NCBI GenBank assembly: GCA_003644385.1
Contig: QNCD01000005.1
Span: forward strand, 1 to 43,849
DNA: 43,849 nt
Reading direction: 5' to 3'
From: Candidatus Omnitrophota bacterium
GTDB lineage: Bacteria > Omnitrophota > Gorgyraeia > Gygaellales > Profunditerraquicolaceae
The notes beneath the pieces are model-generated. The model worked only from the letters and a program-made list of their open reading frames with translations. It had not been told where the DNA came from and made no database searches. A program made the translations under genes and the position numbers. Positions 3,735 to 38,786 of this stretch are shown here, piece by piece (the first letter of the stretch is position 1; each line of letters begins with the position of its first letter).

Positions 3735-4353
3735 AAATAATAAACCGGATTTTTACTACGAAAAAAAGCTTAAAAGAGCAGGTTACGGATTAATCATCGG
3801 AATAGACGAGGCCGGCAGGGGCCCCTTAGCAGGGCCGGTAGTGGCGGCGGCAGTTGCGCTTAAGGCGGGTGAGCGTTTTAAAAATCGTATAGACGATTCT
3901 AAAAAATTAACTCAAGTTTACCGTGAACAGGCTTTTAAAGAAATATCCGAATATTCCTTATACGGTATCGGTATAGTAGAAGAAGGAATGATTGATTTTT
4001 TTAATATTTTGGCGGCTACGCGCATGGCAATGGAGCAGGCGCTCTTTACGCTGCTGGATAAAATAGGAAATCCTGCTAAACAAAATCCTCATATCATCGT
4101 AGACGGCAACGTAAAATTAAACATAGCGTTTCCTTATACTAATATTCCCGGAGGGGACGCAAAATCCAAAAGTATTGCTTGCGCTTCTATCTTGGCTAAA
4201 GTAGTGCGGGACAGGATTATGGTTTTATACGATAAATTGTATCCCGAATACGGCTTCCGTAGGCATAAGGGTTACCCTACAAGGATGCATAAATTCGCTT
4301 TAAGAAGGTTTGGCCCTTCCGGAATCCATAGAAAAACTTTTTGCCTTGTCTAA
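3718..4353 (+). CDS. rnhB: Ribonuclease HII
   Basis: [52 protein letters not shown]. Probable TTG start overlapping the end of rplS. Confidence 0.93.
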
Positions 4354-4726
4354 AGAGAGTTTAAATTTAGGAAAAGCAGCAGAGGAAAGGGCAGTCGGAG
4401 TTCTAAAGGAATCCGGTTACAAAATATTATTCAGAAATTACCGCAACAAATTAGGCGAAATAGACGTTATTGCTCTTGATAGAGACACAATCTGCTTCGT
4501 AGAAGTAAAATCCAAAAAATCAATCAGATTCGGTTTACCGCAGGAAGCTTTGGCCAGGGTTAAGCAGAGAAAAATTTTGCGCGTAGCCCTGTCTTTCCTC
4601 AAAGAGAATAATCTATTGGAGAAAAAAGCAAGGTTTGATGTTGTTGCGCTAGAATTTTACCAGGATAAAGAAAAACCGAAGTTAATCAAAGGCGCATTCC
4701 AGGTGGAGGAAAGTTATGCTTTCTGA
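4310..4726 (+). CDS. YraN/UPF0102 family nuclease-like protein
   Basis: GKAAEERAVGVLKESGYKILFRNYRNKLGEIDVIALDRDTICFVEVKSK. Exact start uncertain (TTG; possibly 4346). Confidence 0.88.
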   Translation: MALPESIEKLFALSKESLNLGKAAEERAVGVLKESGYKILFRNYRNKLGEIDVIALDRDTICFVEVKSKKSIRFGLPQEALARVKQRKILRVALSFLKENNLLEKKARFDVVALEFYQDKEKPKLIKGAFQVEESYAF

Positions 4727-6410
4727 TATCGAAATAGCGCAGTCGGCAAAAAAAGAACCCATCCTAGAGATAGCCCGCAAGTTAAATATTGATCGTAAAT
4801 TCCTTATCCCTTATGGTAATTATATCGCCAAGGTTGAGTTAGATATTTTGAAAGAAATAGAAAATAAGCCTAAAGGGAAATACGTTTTAGTTACTGCAAT
4901 CACTCCTACGCCTTTGGGCGAAGGAAAGACCGTGACTACCATCGGTCTTTCTATGGCTTTAAATAAATTAGGCAAGCTTACTACTACCTGTATCAGGCAG
5001 CCTTCGCTCGGTCCGGTTTTCGGCATAAAAGGAGGCGCTGCCGGCGGAGGTTATGCCCAAATTTTGCCGATGGAGGATTTTAATCTCCATTTTACCGGAG
5101 ATGTGCATGCCGTGGGTTTAGCACATAATTTAGCCGCGGCATATCTAGATAACTCATTTCTAAAAGGAAATAAGCTTAAAATCGACCCGGAAAGAATATA
5201 CTGGCGACGGGTAGTGGATGTAAGCGACAGATTTTTAAGAAACATAAAGATCGGCCTGGGTGGTAAACTGAACGGAATCCCCCGGGATACGGGTTTTGAT
5301 ATTACGGTTGCCTCTGAAGTTATGGCTATTCTGGCATTAAGCCGCGGATTAAAGGATTTAAGGAGTCGCCTCGATAAAATTATTTTAGCTGATTCTACGG
5401 AAGGTAATTCAATAACTCCGAAAGACATAAAGGTCTCCGGTAGCATGGCTGCTCTTTTAAAAGATGCTATAAAACCCAACCTGATTCAAACCTTGGATAA
5501 TACTCCTTGTTTTGTGCACGCCGGGCCTTTTGCTAATATTGCCCATGGAAACAGCACAATTTTAGCGGATATGATCGCATTGCCGATATCGGAATTTGTG
5601 GTTACCGAAGCCGGATTTGGAGCTGATTGCGGCGCGGAAAAATTCTTTAATATAAAATGCCGCGCAAGCGGGCTTGTGCCGGATGTAGCGGTAATTGTCT
5701 GCTCTATCAGGGCGCTAAAGGCGCACAGCGGAAAATTTAATATTGTCGCCGGAAAGCCTCTGGATGAGGGTCTGATAAAAGAAAACATTCCCGCTTTAGA
5801 GGAAGGGATTTGTAATTTAGAAAAGCACATAGAAAATGTTAAATCATTTGGTGTTCCGGCGGTAGTGGCAATTAACAGATTCAGAGCCGACACGGACAAA
5901 GAAGTAGAATTCGTAAAAAAGAAAGCGTTGGAATTCGGCGCTGACGGATGCGAAACAAGCGAGGTCTGGCTTAAGGGCGCAGAGGGCGGAGTAGATTTAG
6001 GCAGGGCAGTGATTAAAGCGGCCGAGTTACCTAAGAAATTCAATTTCCTCTATCCGTTGAACCTGCCGATAAAAGAAAAAATTAGAAGCATCGCCACAAA
6101 GATTTACGGCGCCAAAGATGTTGAATATTCGGAGTTAGCAGAGGGTAAGATTAAATTATTCACCGAGCGCAAATGGGATAACCTGCCTATATGCATGGCC
6201 AAGACGCATCTTTCTTTATCGCATGACCCCACGTTAAAAGGCAGGCCGCGCGATTTTGTTTTACCGATAAGGGATATTCGGCCTTCAATCGGTGCTGGAT
6301 TTTTATATCCGCTTTGCGGAACTATGCAGACTATGCCGGGGCTGCCAAGTCATCCTGCAGGCGAGAAGATAGATATTGACGAAGCAGGAAATATTACAGG
6401 TCTTTTTTAA
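4716..6410 (+). CDS. fhs: Formate--tetrahydrofolate ligase
   Basis: TAITPTPLGEGKTVTTIGLSMAL; RQPSLGPVFGIKGGAAGGGYAQILPMEDFNLHFTGD; MAKTHLSLSHDP; TMPGLPSHPAGEKIDID. Confidence 0.97.
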   Translation: MLSDIEIAQSAKKEPILEIARKLNIDRKFLIPYGNYIAKVELDILKEIENKPKGKYVLVTAITPTPLGEGKTVTTIGLSMALNKLGKLTTTCIRQPSLGPVFGIKGGAAGGGYAQILPMEDFNLHFTGDVHAVGLAHNLAAAYLDNSFLKGNKLKIDPERIYWRRVVDVSDRFLRNIKIGLGGKLNGIPRDTGFDITVASEVMAILALSRGLKDLRSRLDKIILADSTEGNSITPKDIKVSGSMAALLKDAIKPNLIQTLDNTPCFVHAGPFANIAHGNSTILADMIALPISEFVVTEAGFGADCGAEKFFNIKCRASGLVPDVAVIVCSIRALKAHSGKFNIVAGKPLDEGLIKENIPALEEGICNLEKHIENVKSFGVPAVVAINRFRADTDKEVEFVKKKALEFGADGCETSEVWLKGAEGGVDLGRAVIKAAELPKKFNFLYPLNLPIKEKIRSIATKIYGAKDVEYSELAEGKIKLFTERKWDNLPICMAKTHLSLSHDPTLKGRPRDFVLPIRDIRPSIGAGFLYPLCGTMQTMPGLPSHPAGEKIDIDEAGNITGLF

Positions 6411-6463: not shown

Positions 6464-7033
6464 ATGTACGCGGAAGATTCTATCAAGCAATACTTGGATG
6501 ATCTATCAGCACGCCTGCCTGCTCCGGGCGGAGGTTCGGCAGCGGCTTTAGCTGCTTCATTGGGCGCATCTTTAATCAGTATGGTGGCTAATTTTACATT
6601 AGGAAAGCCTAAATACGCTAAATACGAAAGCGAAATCGAGGCAGTTTTAGGAAAGTCTGAAGAATTAAGACAGGAATTTTTAAAATTGGTAGATTTAGAT
6701 GTTACTGCATATAAGAGTAAGGATTTAAAAGAAGCACTGAATGTGCCTTTAATGGTCTGCCGCCTGTGTCTGGAGGCAATCAGGTTATGTCCGCCTTTAA
6801 TTAAGAAAGGCAATGTCAATTTAATCAGCGATGTGGCAGTAGCTGCGGTTCTGCTGGAGTCAGGATTTGCCTCTGCTAAGTTTAATGTGGAAATAAATTT
6901 AAAATATATGAAAGGCAAAGAAGATAATAAATTAATCCGTAACCTGGAAAAAGAAATAAAGTGCAGCGAGAAAATAATCAAAAAAACGCGCCTAGAAACG
7001 GAGGAGAAAGTTGGCAAAACTATTAGAGGGTAA
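6464..7033 (+). CDS. fchA: Methenyltetrahydrofolate cyclohydrolase (FchA/FTCD cyclodeaminase family)
   Basis: LSARLPAPGGGSAAALAASLGASLISMVANFTLGK is the cyclodeaminase-family signature; located between fhs and folD. Confidence 0.88.
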   Translation: MYAEDSIKQYLDDLSARLPAPGGGSAAALAASLGASLISMVANFTLGKPKYAKYESEIEAVLGKSEELRQEFLKLVDLDVTAYKSKDLKEALNVPLMVCRLCLEAIRLCPPLIKKGNVNLISDVAVAAVLLESGFASAKFNVEINLKYMKGKEDNKLIRNLEKEIKCSEKIIKKTRLETEEKVGKTIRG

Positions 7034-7856
7034 ACCGATTGCCCAAAAAATAAAAGAAGGGATAAAACAGGAGATTTCTGCGTTAGGGAAAAAACCGGTA
7101 TTAGCCAGCATCCAGGTGGGGGGGGATGCCGGGGCAGAGGCGTATGCAAAATCCCAGAAAAAAACCGCGGATGCCCTGGGAATAGAATATCAATTTCATA
7201 AATTAGCCCAGGATACCATTGAAGACAAGCTCGTAGGATTTATAAATCAGTTAAACGTAGATGAATCCATAAACGGCATTATTATTCAGATGCCGCTTCC
7301 TGCACACATAGATTATAAAAAAATCAGCCAGTTTATTTCGCCAGAGAAGGACGTGGAGGGGATACACCCGGCTAATATCGGTAAGATAGTTTTCGGCAAA
7401 GCAGATTTATTACCCTGTACTCCTGCAGCAGTGATGGAATTACTGAATGAAACCGGTATGGACCTATACGGCAAAGAAGTGGTAATGGTCGGACACAGCG
7501 AGATTGTGGGTAAACCCATAGCTCTTTTGCTATTGGATAAATTCGCTACGGTTAGTGTTTGTCATATCGGAACTTCCAAAGCCGGTAAATTAGAGGAGCA
7601 TGTTAAAAAAGCAGAATTTTTAATTGTCGCTGTGGGCAAAGCCGGTTTAATTAAGGGCGAATGGGTAAGAGAGGGCGCGGTAGTGATTGATGTAGGGATA
7701 AACCGTGTAGAAGGTAAGATTGTCGGCGATGTAGAATTTGAAGAGGCAGAAAAACGCGCTTCAATCATTACTCCGGTTCCCGGCGGAGTCGGCCCTTTAA
7801 CCGTAACCATGCTGATGCGCAATTTACTTAAGGCCGCTAAGTTACAACAGAAATAA
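7011..7856 (+). CDS. folD: Bifunctional methylene-THF dehydrogenase/methenyl-THF cyclohydrolase
   Basis: SINGIIIQMPLPAHID; EKDVEGIHPANIGKIVFG; VVMVGHSEIVGKPIALLL; TPVPGGVGPLTVTMLMRN. Confidence 0.96.
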   Translation: MAKLLEGKPIAQKIKEGIKQEISALGKKPVLASIQVGGDAGAEAYAKSQKKTADALGIEYQFHKLAQDTIEDKLVGFINQLNVDESINGIIIQMPLPAHIDYKKISQFISPEKDVEGIHPANIGKIVFGKADLLPCTPAAVMELLNETGMDLYGKEVVMVGHSEIVGKPIALLLLDKFATVSVCHIGTSKAGKLEEHVKKAEFLIVAVGKAGLIKGEWVREGAVVIDVGINRVEGKIVGDVEFEEAEKRASIITPVPGGVGPLTVTMLMRNLLKAAKLQQK

Positions 7857-7910
7857 GTATTAATTTTTGTTCTTTTTAGGTTCATTAAATATGAGTTTTA
7901 ATTAATTTTT

Positions 7911-8079
7911 AGCGGGTGGCTTGGATTGATTTCAAGCAGGGCGTCCGAGGAGCCCGAGTGGGCACGGATCACCCGCTACTACATGTTAGTGAGAGCGAGG
8001 GGCCGTAGGCGAGCGCAGTTTTGCCTCGCAGGGGCAAAACAAGCGTCCCCGCGAGAAACAAGCCAAGACAGGATCCGCT
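7911..8079 (+). other. ~169-nt structured element, copy A (directly upstream of metF)
   Basis: Terminal stem AGCGGGT/ATCCGCT (one G-U). Inner hairpin GTTTTGCC-TCGCAGG-GGCAAAAC at 8018-8040. Alignable end to end with the reverse complement of 38554-38721, with compensatory stem changes. Confidence 0.7.
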
Positions 8080-8095
8080 CACCATGGAGTAAGAA

Positions 8096-8965
8096 ATGAG
8101 TTTTAAGGAAAAAGTACAGTCCGGTAAGTTTGTGGTGACTTCGGAGATCGGGCCGCCAAAAGGTATAGAGACCAAGGTTCTTTTAGAAGATGCCGAGCTT
8201 ATTCGTAATAAAGTAGATGCAATTAATGTTACGGACTTACAGAGTTCGGTGATGCGTTTAGGGTCCCTGGCAGTCTGCAGTTTATTAAAGGAGCGGGGAT
8301 TTGAGCCGATATTCCAGGTTACCTGCCGCGACCGTAACCGCCTGGCACTGCAGTCGGATATTCTTTCTGCGGCAAGCCTGGGTATTGAAAATTTATTGCT
8401 TTTAACCGGTGACCATACTACCTTAGGAGATCATCCGGATGCAAAGCCGGTATTTGATCTGGACTCGGTTCAATTATTGGACGTGGTAAGAACGCTTCAG
8501 CAGGGCACAGATATGAAGGGCAATAAATTGGAAGGCCAGGCCCCGAAGTTCTTTATGGGCGCAGTGGTTAATCCCGGAGCAGATCCTCTGGAGCCTCAGA
8601 TTATGAAGATGGAGAAAAAAATCGCCGCCGGAGCCCAATTCTTCCAAACCCAGGCGATTTATGATATTAAAATATTCGAGAATTTTTTAGATAAAGTCAA
8701 GCGTTTGAACGTCCCGATACTAGGAGGAATCGTCTTATTAAAATCAGCAGGAATGGCTAAATATATGAATAAGAATGTCGCCGGAGTGACGGTGCCGGAT
8801 AATTTAATCAAAGAGATGGAAAGTACAAAGGATAAAGTAGCAACATCTATCGAGATTGCCGCCAGATTAATTAAGGAATTAAAACCCATGTGCCAGGGCA
8901 TCCATATCATGCCTATCGGCTGGGATAAAATAGTGCCCAAGGTACTTGATGCCTCGGGATTATAA
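8096..8965 (+). CDS. metF: Methylenetetrahydrofolate reductase, MetF-like
   Basis: FVVTSEIGPPKG, NVTDLQSSVMRLGSLAVCSLL, PIFQVTCRDRN, LLLTGDH, GAQFFQTQAIYD; part of the THF-pathway cluster. SD GGAG upstream. Confidence 0.9.
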   Translation: MSFKEKVQSGKFVVTSEIGPPKGIETKVLLEDAELIRNKVDAINVTDLQSSVMRLGSLAVCSLLKERGFEPIFQVTCRDRNRLALQSDILSAASLGIENLLLLTGDHTTLGDHPDAKPVFDLDSVQLLDVVRTLQQGTDMKGNKLEGQAPKFFMGAVVNPGADPLEPQIMKMEKKIAAGAQFFQTQAIYDIKIFENFLDKVKRLNVPILGGIVLLKSAGMAKYMNKNVAGVTVPDNLIKEMESTKDKVATSIEIAARLIKELKPMCQGIHIMPIGWDKIVPKVLDASGL

Positions 8966-8989: not shown

Positions 8990-11900
8990 ATGGCTAAAAT
9001 AGTAATCGTCGGTAATTCTGCTGCGGGTTTTTCCTGCACCGAAACATTAGTAAGACATTCACCAGATCATGAAATCACGGTGATTTCTCAGGAGCCCGGC
9101 CTGCCCTATAAAAGAGATTTATTAATTGATTATCTTGATAGCAAAGTAAAAGAAGAGGAACTTTTCTTTTGTTCCCGCGATTTTTATGAAAAGAATAAGG
9201 TTAAACTTATAAATGACAGCAAAGTTGTCAGGGTAGATACCAGGAAGAAACAGGTAGTACTTAAGAATAATAATAAGATCGGTTATGATTACCTGGTGGT
9301 GTCAACCGGGGCAAGGGCGCGCATTCCTGATATTCCCGGTAAGGGCAAAGACGGAGTTTACAGTCTTTATACCTTAGAAGATGCACAAAAGTTCAAGCAA
9401 CAGTTAATTTTGGCTGATACGCTTTGCCTGGTCGGAGAAGCGGAATTATGTTCGCGTTTTTTAGGGGCCTCCAGCGTGAAAGATAAGCATACAAAAATTA
9501 TCAGCTCCCCTAAGCCCGAATCTTTTTCGGCCGGCGAAAACGTAGAATGGCTGGATAACTTAGAGATTACTGAGATTATCGGTGAAGGGGCTCAGCTAAA
9601 GGCCTTTAAGTTAAATAACGGCAAAGTAATCGCAACACCGCTGATTTTATTTATAGGTAATTATTTTGCCGCAACCGATTTTTTAAAAGAATCGGGAATC
9701 GTTACTGACCAGGGTTATATTTGTACAGATGAGGCAATGCGCACGAATATCGAAAATATTTTCGCCTGCGGCAGTGTCTCTAAAATAAAAAATCAACTTA
9801 TAAAATGTAAATCCCGCGGGGATGCGGCTAACGAAGGGGCTAAGGCCGCTTCGACAATCGTCAGCCTATTGGAAAGGAGTAATAACGCTATGTCGGAAGT
9901 ATTAGTGCAGCTGGGCAGCAAGGGTGCGGATACGCTATTAAGCCTTACACGCCAATCTTTAGAAAAGTTAATTGCCGAGAAAGGTAAAGACGCAAAAGTA
10001 GGTTTTCCGGAAACCAATTATTATCTGCCGTTGGTAGATGCTCTTTTGAATATCGAGGTTAAGACTTTAGGGGATTGCCTTTTAGCTTTAGCTGAAGCTG
10101 AAAAGTTAAATAAAAATATTGCTGCAAAAAGCGGCTTAGTCATAGCGAGTTTAGGCGGGATCCTGAATAAGGGGGTAGCTACCTTAGTCTGTGAGGAGAT
10201 TCTGGCAGCCTTGGAGGTATTGAATAATAATCATCCTAACCAGGGATTTACCGGGTTTATCCCGGATAATATTTTACGTTCGCTGGGGATTCAGCTGGTA
10301 GATGGAAGAATTGCCGGTATTGCTGTAATATTGGGTCCGGCTAAAGACGAGGAGGCGGCAGTAAAATTAGTCAGAGATTTCCAAACCAAGGGCATCGTCA
10401 GCCTCCTGGCTGGTAGTATTGAGGGCAAAACTTTCAAGGCTCAGCTGGAAAGCCAGGGTGTTGAATTAGGCCTTGAGAATTATATTGTGCCTTTAGGGGA
10501 AGATTATTTATCCGCAATTTACGCGGTAAATTTCGCGGTCAGGGCTCCGTTGACTTACGGAGGGCATAAGCCAGGACAATGGGGCAAAATTGCCGATTAT
10601 ATCCGTAATCGTGTTCCCGCTTTTGTTTTACTTTTGGGCCACGTTGATGAAGTTTTAGTAGCTACCGGATTGGGGGCATTAGCTTTTGGTTTACCGATTA
10701 TAACCGACTTAGAAGTGCCGCAGCTAGGTAAAATCGATACTACACGTTATGAGGCATTAGTTACTGAGAAAGATTATAGCAATTTGGTCTCCAAATGTAT
10801 ACTTACCAGGGGAATAAAAGTTAAATTAGCCAAGGTGGATGTACCTGTGCCATATGCAGCAGCCTTTGAAGGTGAGCGTGTTAGAAAAGAACAATTACAC
10901 GCCGAATTCGGCGGTAAGGTAAGCACTGCCTTTGAGTTTTTGATTACCAAAAATCTGGATGAGGTCGAAGACGGTAAAGTTGAAGTTGTCGGGCCGGATA
11001 TCGACCAGTTGGAGAAAGGCAGCAAGTCTATGCCTTTAGCGATTGTCGTAGAAGTTGCCGGAAGAAAAATGCAGAAAGATTTTGAGCCGATTCTAGAGCG
11101 CCAGGTACACCGCTATACTAATTATGCCATGGGCCTGATGCATATCGGCCAGAGGGATATGAACTGGATAAGGATATCCAAGGATGCTTTTAATAAGGGT
11201 TTTCGTTTAAAGCATATCGGCGTAATTTTACACGCTATGATACACGAGGAATATAATGCTATAGTAGATAAAGTCCAGGTGAAAATTTACAGCAAGTCCG
11301 AGGATGTGGAAAAATTATTGCCCCAGGCAAGAAAAGTTTTTGACGAACGCGACGCGCGCTTAAGCGGTATGACCGATGAAAGCGTAGATACCTTTTATAG
11401 CTGTATGCTCTGCCAGAGTTTTGCCCCTAACCACGTCTGCATTATTACTCCCGAGCGCTTAGGGTTGTGTGGAGCATATTCCTGGCTCGACGGAAAAGCC
11501 TCTTACGAAATTACCCCTACCGGCCCAAACCAACCGGTATTAAAAGGAGAACTTCTTGACGCGAAATTAGGGCAGTGGAAGAATATCAATGATTTTGTTT
11601 ATCAGAAGTCAAACAAAAGCATTGAAAAAGTAAGCATGTATTCGCTGATGGAGTTTCCGCAATCATCCTGCGGATGTTTTGAGTGCATTGCTGCGATAAT
11701 CCCTGAGGCAAACGGGGTTATGATTGTGCACCGCGATTATTCCGGAATGACTCCCTGCGGAATGAGCTTTACTACTCTGGCGGGTTCAGTAGGGGGTGGG
11801 GTGCAGACTCCCGGATTTTTAGGAATCGGTAAATTATACATTATCAGTAAGAAATTCATTTCTGCAGAAGGGGGTTTAAAGCGGGTAGTCTGGATGCCCA

Positions 11901-12073
11901 AAGAGTTAAAAGAACTTTTGGGAGATAAGTTAAAGAAGGCTGCTGAGGATATAGGTATGCCTGAATTAGCAGATAAAATTTGCGATGAAACCCAGGCTAC
12001 TACCTCTGAAGAGCTTTTAAACTTCTTAAATAAGGTCGGCCATCCTGCTTTGAATTTACCGGCAATGATTTAG
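8990..12073 (+). CDS. acsB: Fusion: N-terminal FAD/pyridine-nucleotide-disulfide oxidoreductase-like domain (~300 aa) plus complete acetyl-CoA synthase / CODH-ACS beta subunit (~727 aa)
   Basis: N-terminus: KIVIVGNSAAGFSC, YDYLVVSTGARARIPDIPG, TNIENIFACGSVSK. C-terminus: GFPETNYYLPL, FEGERVRKEQLHAEFGG, GPDIDQLEKGSKSMPL, CMLCQSFAPNHVCIITPERLGLCGAYSWLDGKASYEI and SSCGCFEC (cluster A ligands), GFLGIGKLYIISKKFISAEGG. No stop codon between the domains. Confidence 0.93.
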   Translation: MAKIVIVGNSAAGFSCTETLVRHSPDHEITVISQEPGLPYKRDLLIDYLDSKVKEEELFFCSRDFYEKNKVKLINDSKVVRVDTRKKQVVLKNNNKIGYDYLVVSTGARARIPDIPGKGKDGVYSLYTLEDAQKFKQQLILADTLCLVGEAELCSRFLGASSVKDKHTKIISSPKPESFSAGENVEWLDNLEITEIIGEGAQLKAFKLNNGKVIATPLILFIGNYFAATDFLKESGIVTDQGYICTDEAMRTNIENIFACGSVSKIKNQLIKCKSRGDAANEGAKAASTIVSLLERSNNAMSEVLVQLGSKGADTLLSLTRQSLEKLIAEKGKDAKVGFPETNYYLPLVDALLNIEVKTLGDCLLALAEAEKLNKNIAAKSGLVIASLGGILNKGVATLVCEEILAALEVLNNNHPNQGFTGFIPDNILRSLGIQLVDGRIAGIAVILGPAKDEEAAVKLVRDFQTKGIVSLLAGSIEGKTFKAQLESQGVELGLENYIVPLGEDYLSAIYAVNFAVRAPLTYGGHKPGQWGKIADYIRNRVPAFVLLLGHVDEVLVATGLGALAFGLPIITDLEVPQLGKIDTTRYEALVTEKDYSNLVSKCILTRGIKVKLAKVDVPVPYAAAFEGERVRKEQLHAEFGGKVSTAFEFLITKNLDEVEDGKVEVVGPDIDQLEKGSKSMPLAIVVEVAGRKMQKDFEPILERQVHRYTNYAMGLMHIGQRDMNWIRISKDAFNKGFRLKHIGVILHAMIHEEYNAIVDKVQVKIYSKSEDVEKLLPQARKVFDERDARLSGMTDESVDTFYSCMLCQSFAPNHVCIITPERLGLCGAYSWLDGKASYEITPTGPNQPVLKGELLDAKLGQWKNINDFVYQKSNKSIEKVSMYSLMEFPQSSCGCFECIAAIIPEANGVMIVHRDYSGMTPCGMSFTTLAGSVGGGVQTPGFLGIGKLYIISKKFISAEGGLKRVVWMPKELKELLGDKLKKAAEDIGMPELADKICDETQATTSEELLNFLNKVGHPALNLPAMI
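9871..9892 (+). promoter_or_regulatory. Internal Shine-Dalgarno and ATG for possible stand-alone AcsB (ATG at 9890, in frame)
   Basis: ggaaAGGAGtaataacgctATG. 9890 is codon 301 of the 8990 ORF. The downstream product would be 727 aa, starting MSEVLVQLGSKGADTLL. Confidence 0.6.
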
Positions 12074-38553: not shown

Positions 38554-38721
38554 AGCGGGTCCTGCCTTGGCTGTGCTTTCGCGGGGACGTTTGTTGCGGC
38601 CCAGCGTGCCGCAACTGCACTCCGTTCCAGCCCTTCGCTCTCACTGACATTTTATAGCTGGCGAACCTTGCCCGCTCAGGGCTTCCACAGGCCCCGCTCA
38701 ACCACAGCCAAGTCACCCGCT
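38554..38721 (-). other. ~168-nt structured element, copy B (minus-oriented relative to copy A)
   Basis: Terminal stem AGCGGGT (38554-38560)/ACCCGCT (38715-38721); hairpin GTTGCGGC-CCAGCGT-GCCGCAAC (38593-38615). The reverse complement aligns with 7911-8079. Confidence 0.7.
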
Positions 38722-38786
38722 AATCTCCAGAGAAATCGCTTGATTTAAACTGCCAAATGCTGTAAAATTGTTACACACTTGCTTTA

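Follow-up and report, generated by a model that had tools for sequence, protein, structure and literature searches.

Why does AcsB, a central and highly conserved enzyme of carbon fixation that is usually studied together with CODH, carry an oxidoreductase-like domain at its N-terminus in an Omnitrophota bacterium? The question is raised by one gene in the window, by which we mean the whole stretch of 43,849 nucleotides analysed here. The gene (Table 1) is a single open frame of 1027 codons without internal stop, in which a domain of 300 amino acids, here called ox300, is joined in frame to AcsB. This reading of an earlier note on the same DNA was borne out by Pfam and NCBIfam: Pyr_redox_2 covers aa 3-264 (E 5.5e-33), and CODH_A_N (322-409), CdhC (618-773) and ACS_CODH_B_C (784-1026) follow on the AcsB side. 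NF040764 (CODH_ACS_al_bet) spans aa 311-1026 with 1001 bits against a cut-off of 800, and the complete AcsB occupies aa 302-1026. Its A-cluster Cys ligands (CxxCx8C...C) are present as YSCMLCQSFAPNHVC...C plus CGC, so that AcsB is full-length and carries all cluster A ligands, as the note had also claimed. According to structure alignments, the AcsB part is ~43-45% identical to the bacterial enzymes of C. autoethanogenum (6ytt), C. hydrogenoformans (7zkj/1ru3) and Moorella (1oao); it shares with bacterial AcsB the A-cluster ligands and the fold of the CODH-binding N-terminal domain (aa 302-620, TM 0.92 to 9g03_D). The peptide across the junction is LLERSNNAMSEVLVQ; free AcsB would begin MSEVLVQ. 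A search of the window genome (1.74 Mb, 175 contigs, 90.7% complete) found no second AcsB, and its AcsB therefore comes from this frame, either fused or via the internal start.

Table 1. Coordinates of the fused gene, its parts and the methyl-branch genes upstream of it in the window.
Feature	Position	Strand	Evidence
fhs (formate-THF ligase), methyl-branch cluster	4716..6410	+	
FTCD_C (formiminotransferase-cyclodeaminase-like), methyl-branch cluster	6464..7033	+	
folD, methyl-branch cluster	7011..7856	+	
metF (methylenetetrahydrofolate reductase)	8096..8965	+	Pfam, NCBIfam
ox300::AcsB fused open frame, 1027 aa	8990..12073	+	Pfam, NCBIfam, translation
ox300, shortened Pyr_redox_2 domain, 300 aa	8990..9889	+	
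Degenerate NAD-domain region, aa ~106-230; sole ox300 part kept in 32 short fusions	9305..9679	+	
Internal Shine-Dalgarno AAGGAG	9874..9879	+	
AcsB, 727 aa if internal ATG 9890 used; A-cluster ligands intact	9890..12073	+	
Out-of-frame TAG at the ox300 stop position of most separate-gene relatives (overlap of 16 nt)	9903..9905	+	

Relatives were sought in 58 related genomes and, by means of an alignment that covers the N-terminal domain of AcsB, in 85,462 species genomes; 80 loci were named as a result, almost all of them in assemblies of Candidatus Omnitrophota. Loci L087-L149 (51-78% identity) together with the window make up type A (64 loci), and L150-L166 (43-49%) make up type B. In type A, ox300 is a separate gene of ~300 aa upstream of acsB in 28 loci, mostly overlapping it; the whole of ox300 is in frame with AcsB in four (the window, L095, L119 and L130); and 32 loci encode a short fusion, in which AcsB carries a 117-165-aa extension matching only ox300 ~110-228. 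This remnant of ~115 aa is the former NAD domain, both FAD regions having been dropped. The earlier note had left it to such a search whether the architecture recurs in Omnitrophota or close homologues are always two genes; it recurs in these three further full fusions and 32 short ones. Across the phylum, 386 genomes were surveyed: 151 of them have an AcsB match at E <= 1e-30, and the short fusion was counted in 25, of which all except one belong to the family of the window.

In one of the 28 separate-gene loci (L104, also L032, of genome G002), the ox300 beside acsB is broken by a frameshift into two frames (hmm 2-144 and 165-291), the last ox300 stop falls in the acsB frame, and the gene is possibly a decaying ox300. 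In L034 (G034, oriented coordinates 4045-4065), a frameshift with stops interrupts acsB itself, which may be real or an assembly error. Inteins occur in AcsB of three other Omnitrophota genomes (L168:121-3903, minus strand; L169:1909-5697 and L170:1957-4641, plus strand), inserted exactly before the A-cluster CGC (PETS|C...N|CGCFE), so that removal restores PETSCGCFE. All three match Pfam Intein_splicing (E ~2e-10), two contain LAGLIDADG_3 and the third is a mini-intein; no paper title on an AcsB intein appeared in a brief literature search.

In sequence and in fold, ox300 comes closest to the NADH:rubredoxin and ferredoxin reductases, and it has the Pyr_redox_2 fold and the FAD motif GxSAAG in common with NROR (3klj), TodA (4emi) and putidaredoxin reductase (3lb8). 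This first FAD motif is kept (GNSAAG in the window; first G 32/32, last G 28/32). Unlike those reductases, ox300 is tied to AcsB, by fusion or as a coupled gene, and its NAD motif GxGxxG is lost; the motif reads GEAELC in the window, and its first G alone is conserved in ox300 and the remnant. The second FAD motif has mostly lost its final GD (ACGS in the window; S or A in most ox300 versus D in 13/14 paralogues), and the C-terminal Rubredoxin_C is absent from the window ox300 and present in both ~425-aa paralogues scanned. The ~425-aa paralogue lies upstream of type B (CODH-linked) acsB, with GGGLIG in nearly all copies and GD kept. Because the NAD motif is gone, NADH catalysis by ox300 is unlikely. 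The flavin-oxidoreductase domain of the earlier note thus stands as a Pyr_redox_2 match, but a shortened and degenerate one. In the thioredoxin reductase family, the redox-active CxxC sits in the NAD-like domain; no CxxC pair was found in this domain of the window (aa 106-230).

Purifying selection acts on the remnant (dN/dS 0.07-0.33). It had no match in Pfam, NCBIfam or PDB sequences, and a profile search of the PDB returned chance-level matches only. Its fold is predicted with pLDDT of about 80-90, and its best structural match outside ACS/CODH entries is ferredoxin-flavin thioredoxin reductase 6gna (E 1.6e-5), a ferredoxin-dependent relative of the ox300 fold, from which ox300 differs by lacking CxxC in the NAD-like domain and by its linkage to metF and acsB. 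In the AF2 model of the window protein (poor C-terminal half set aside), ox300 has pLDDT mostly of 85-98, and a continuous helix (276-331) is predicted from its C-terminal part into the first AcsB helix, with confidence of ~72-75 at the junction. The orientation of the domains is unsure in the models (pTM 0.51 and 0.59; linker pLDDT below 50 in the short fusion).

The separate genes suggest how the window fusion may have arisen. In these loci, the commonest distance from the A of the acsB start codon to the ox300 stop is exactly 16 nt, with the stop in the -1 frame; this TAG persists in the window, out of frame (ATGTCGGAAGTATTAG, 9890-9905). Past the conserved end of ox300 (ER), the window has a spacer of 12 nt compared with 11 nt in, for example, L131 and L139; in the full fusions L095 and L119 it is 12 and 9 nt, respectively. 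According to the relic TAG and the one-base-longer spacer, a net +1/-2 spacer indel would best explain the window fusion, rather than the loss of a stop between two operon genes that had been proposed earlier; the relatives' ox300 ends in the other frame and the TAG is still in place. Since retention of the TAG may simply reflect that AcsB begins Val-Leu-Val, the spacer indel is an origin that we infer. In the tree of the NAD-like domain, full-length fusions need three changes (bootstrap 3-4), the window lying beside the separate gene L136, L095 and L119 near the separate gene L106, and L130 elsewhere, and the short domain forms one clade with 100/100 support. In the AcsB tree, full fusions need four changes and short fusions are scattered (10 changes, six forced by well-supported branches). 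The full fusion thus appears to have had at least three origins, and the scatter of the remnant on the AcsB tree indicates that the domain was exchanged between AcsB lineages, or that the fusion was lost and regained.

Start strength was calculated as duplex energy with the anti-SD, the best nearby start being picked per locus, which favours finding one. The internal ATG of the window (9890, codon 301), preceded by AAGGAG, reaches -8.2 kcal/mol, compared with a median of -8.45 for stand-alone type A acsB, and is usable for AcsB as the earlier note had held. The fusion's own start at 8990, 25 nt past the metF stop, has a weak SD (-2.4 kcal/mol). Internal starts of the other full fusions have about -4.4 to -5.3 kcal/mol, and all four keep an ATG with SD <= -4, a value reached by ~30% of ordinary in-frame ATGs within AcsB genes. 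Conservation of the internal start, to which the note had also pointed, therefore holds in 4/4 full fusions, but extends to short fusions only in part: a good start is kept in about half of them and is lost or displaced in 11 (L092, L093, L098, L101, L103, L120, L121, L124, L135, L142 and L144). In these 11, N-extended AcsB is likely the only product, so the fused AcsB must work. Given its strong internal start and the weak one at 8990, two products are likely from the window, with free AcsB expected to outweigh the fusion.

The earlier interpretation was incomplete in that it missed the lack of CODH in these organisms. Neither PF03063 (Prismane/CODH) nor TIGR01702 had a match in the window genome, and TIGR01702 detected CODH in none of the ~63 genomes with ox300 or the remnant (type A), compared with 30/35 other genomes, partial genes at contig ends included (G034 and L140 stand for one genome, and some further ones may be double-counted). 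Prismane matches of 430-450 aa and ~560 aa, present in some of these genomes, were rejected as CODH; none came near the TIGR01702 CooS cut-off, and they are likely hybrid-cluster-protein-like. The tunnel-gating motif was dropped as a possible hallmark of CODH-less AcsB: it is the same in the CODH-linked loci fetched, but the pattern used to find them included it, so the comparison carries no information. No molybdopterin-type formate dehydrogenase was found in the window genome, which encodes AcsC, AcsD, AcsE, RACo and a CooC-like ATPase on one contig (C47) and MetV on another (C32). A partial pathway without CODH is already known in Omnitrophota: in Seymour et al. 2023 (PMC10066038), AcsA, CooS/F and formate dehydrogenase are missing and CO is proposed as substrate, and the window genome fits the partial Wood-Ljungdahl pathway given there for Velamenicoccus and relatives. 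The passages of that paper matched by term search make no mention of the fusion or an ox300 gene, and literature text searches, with most subscription papers outside their scope, yielded no description of an ox300-AcsB fusion.

Wherever metF was located in a type A locus, ox300 follows it. The distance from the metF stop to the start of ox300 or the remnant is 0-5 nt in most type A loci, longer in the window, and points to coupled translation in most relatives. The order in the two type B loci scanned is metF-cooS-ferredoxin-oxidoreductase-acsB. We also found ox300 directly after metF with acsB kilobases off (L064 in G051, L065 in G040), and G051 encodes the ~425-aa paralogue as well as ox300; ox300 thus looks like an old neighbour of metF. 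In the window, a 181-bp GC-rich, strongly folding sequence (7905-8085, z -2.7) lies between folD and metF; it recurs in the genome with 82% identity on contig C4 and 75% at window 38554-38723 (minus strand), and had no match in Rfam.

Could the fusion be an artefact, or a real frame whose fused product does not matter? Most relatives with full-length ox300 have two frames, a single base decides between the two states and the window comes from a 175-contig assembly, so that one miscalled base could have joined truly separate overlapping genes; but full fusions in three further genomes with differing spacers, the 32 short fusions and a junction without long homopolymer make such an error improbable, and the window fusion is real. 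Programmed -1 frameshifting, by which relatives would make the fusion that the window has hard-wired, accords with an acsB frame -1 to ox300 in 18 separate loci, but with a slippery heptamer in a workable stretch in only two of the 18 it is disfavoured and very improbable indeed. A somewhat better case, though still an unlikely one, can be made that only the free AcsB started at 9890 matters, the fused protein being a neutral result of read-through, as the contrast between the internal SD and the fusion's own start would have it. Against it stand the short fusions without a usable AcsB start, the purifying selection on the remnant and the repeated origin of the fusion, all of them evidence from relatives rather than from the window.

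A redox role for ox300 deserves more weight and is a possible, though not a favoured, reading. Here, ox300 would be a ferredoxin-dependent flavoprotein passing electrons to MetF or to reductive activation of AcsB, and the remnant a ferredoxin docking surface, which overlaps the docking role proposed below but assigns a redox function to full-length ox300. The resemblance of the fold to ferredoxin reductases, the match of the remnant to 6gna, the position after metF and the retained GxSAAG are all in its favour, but the remnant has no FAD regions, the GD motif is GS or GA in most ox300 and the NAD-like domain of the window frame lacks a CxxC pair. The FAD domain as the useful part of the fusion was ruled out by the 32 relatives that dropped it. 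Of the earlier idea that the fusion brings a flavin domain to ACS, the fusion therefore stands and flavin as the general role is unlikely; a flavin role is possible only in forms with full-length ox300.

Taken as a whole, the explanation that we consider rather probable combines an indel-made fusion, two products and a partner or docking domain for a CODH-less AcsB. An older, tightly linked metF-ox300-acsB set would have given the in-frame window fusion through a small spacer indel, with some ox300-AcsB made from 8990 and more free AcsB from 9890. The ox300 itself would descend from an NADH:ferredoxin-reductase-like flavoprotein; having lost the NAD site and the C-terminal domain, it would have come to serve AcsB as a partner in organisms without CODH, the partner subunit later becoming a domain. 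In solved CODH/ACS, the ACS N-terminal domain (residues 2-315) stays bound to CODH (PMC12289521). The extra domain sits at the N-terminus of that CODH-binding domain, or in the adjacent gene, directly after metF, from which we infer a partner that holds AcsB; and because many relatives keep only the degenerate NAD domain there, it is proposed as a docking or tethering module, not an NADH oxidoreductase, which would link AcsB to MetF or an electron carrier. Both the docking role and the identity of the partner are putative. The stronger version, in which a worn-down, non-catalytic flavoprotein domain replaces CODH on the ACS N-domain and ACS works without CODH (acetyl-CoA cleavage or free CO) in a MetF-linked assembly, is tentative and less likely than not.

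A comparable enzyme set without CODH is that of Dehalococcoides mccartyi, which, according to PMC7005905, has AcsB and AcsCD as here; its AcsB is proposed to cleave acetyl-CoA into CO, which leaves the cell, and a methyl group, thus supplying methyl groups (Zhuang 2014, cited there). D. mccartyi lacks MetF and AcsE, whereas the window genome has both. Compared with bacterial AcsB, the Omnitrophota form adds an N-terminal domain of 300 or ~115 aa in a genome where no CODH was found. The enzyme is known, its domain arrangement is new and tied to the loss of CODH, and the function of the added domain is putative. The series from separate through fused to reduced forms shows an oxidoreductase becoming an enzyme domain stepwise. 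The repeated joining of AcsB and ox300 in CODH-less Omnitrophota suggests that another partner has taken CODH's former place, and this large natural group, in which AcsB, CoFeSP and the methyl branch are kept, CODH is absent and AcsB is repeatedly joined to the same small domain, offers a testable route to how, and in which direction, ACS works without CODH.
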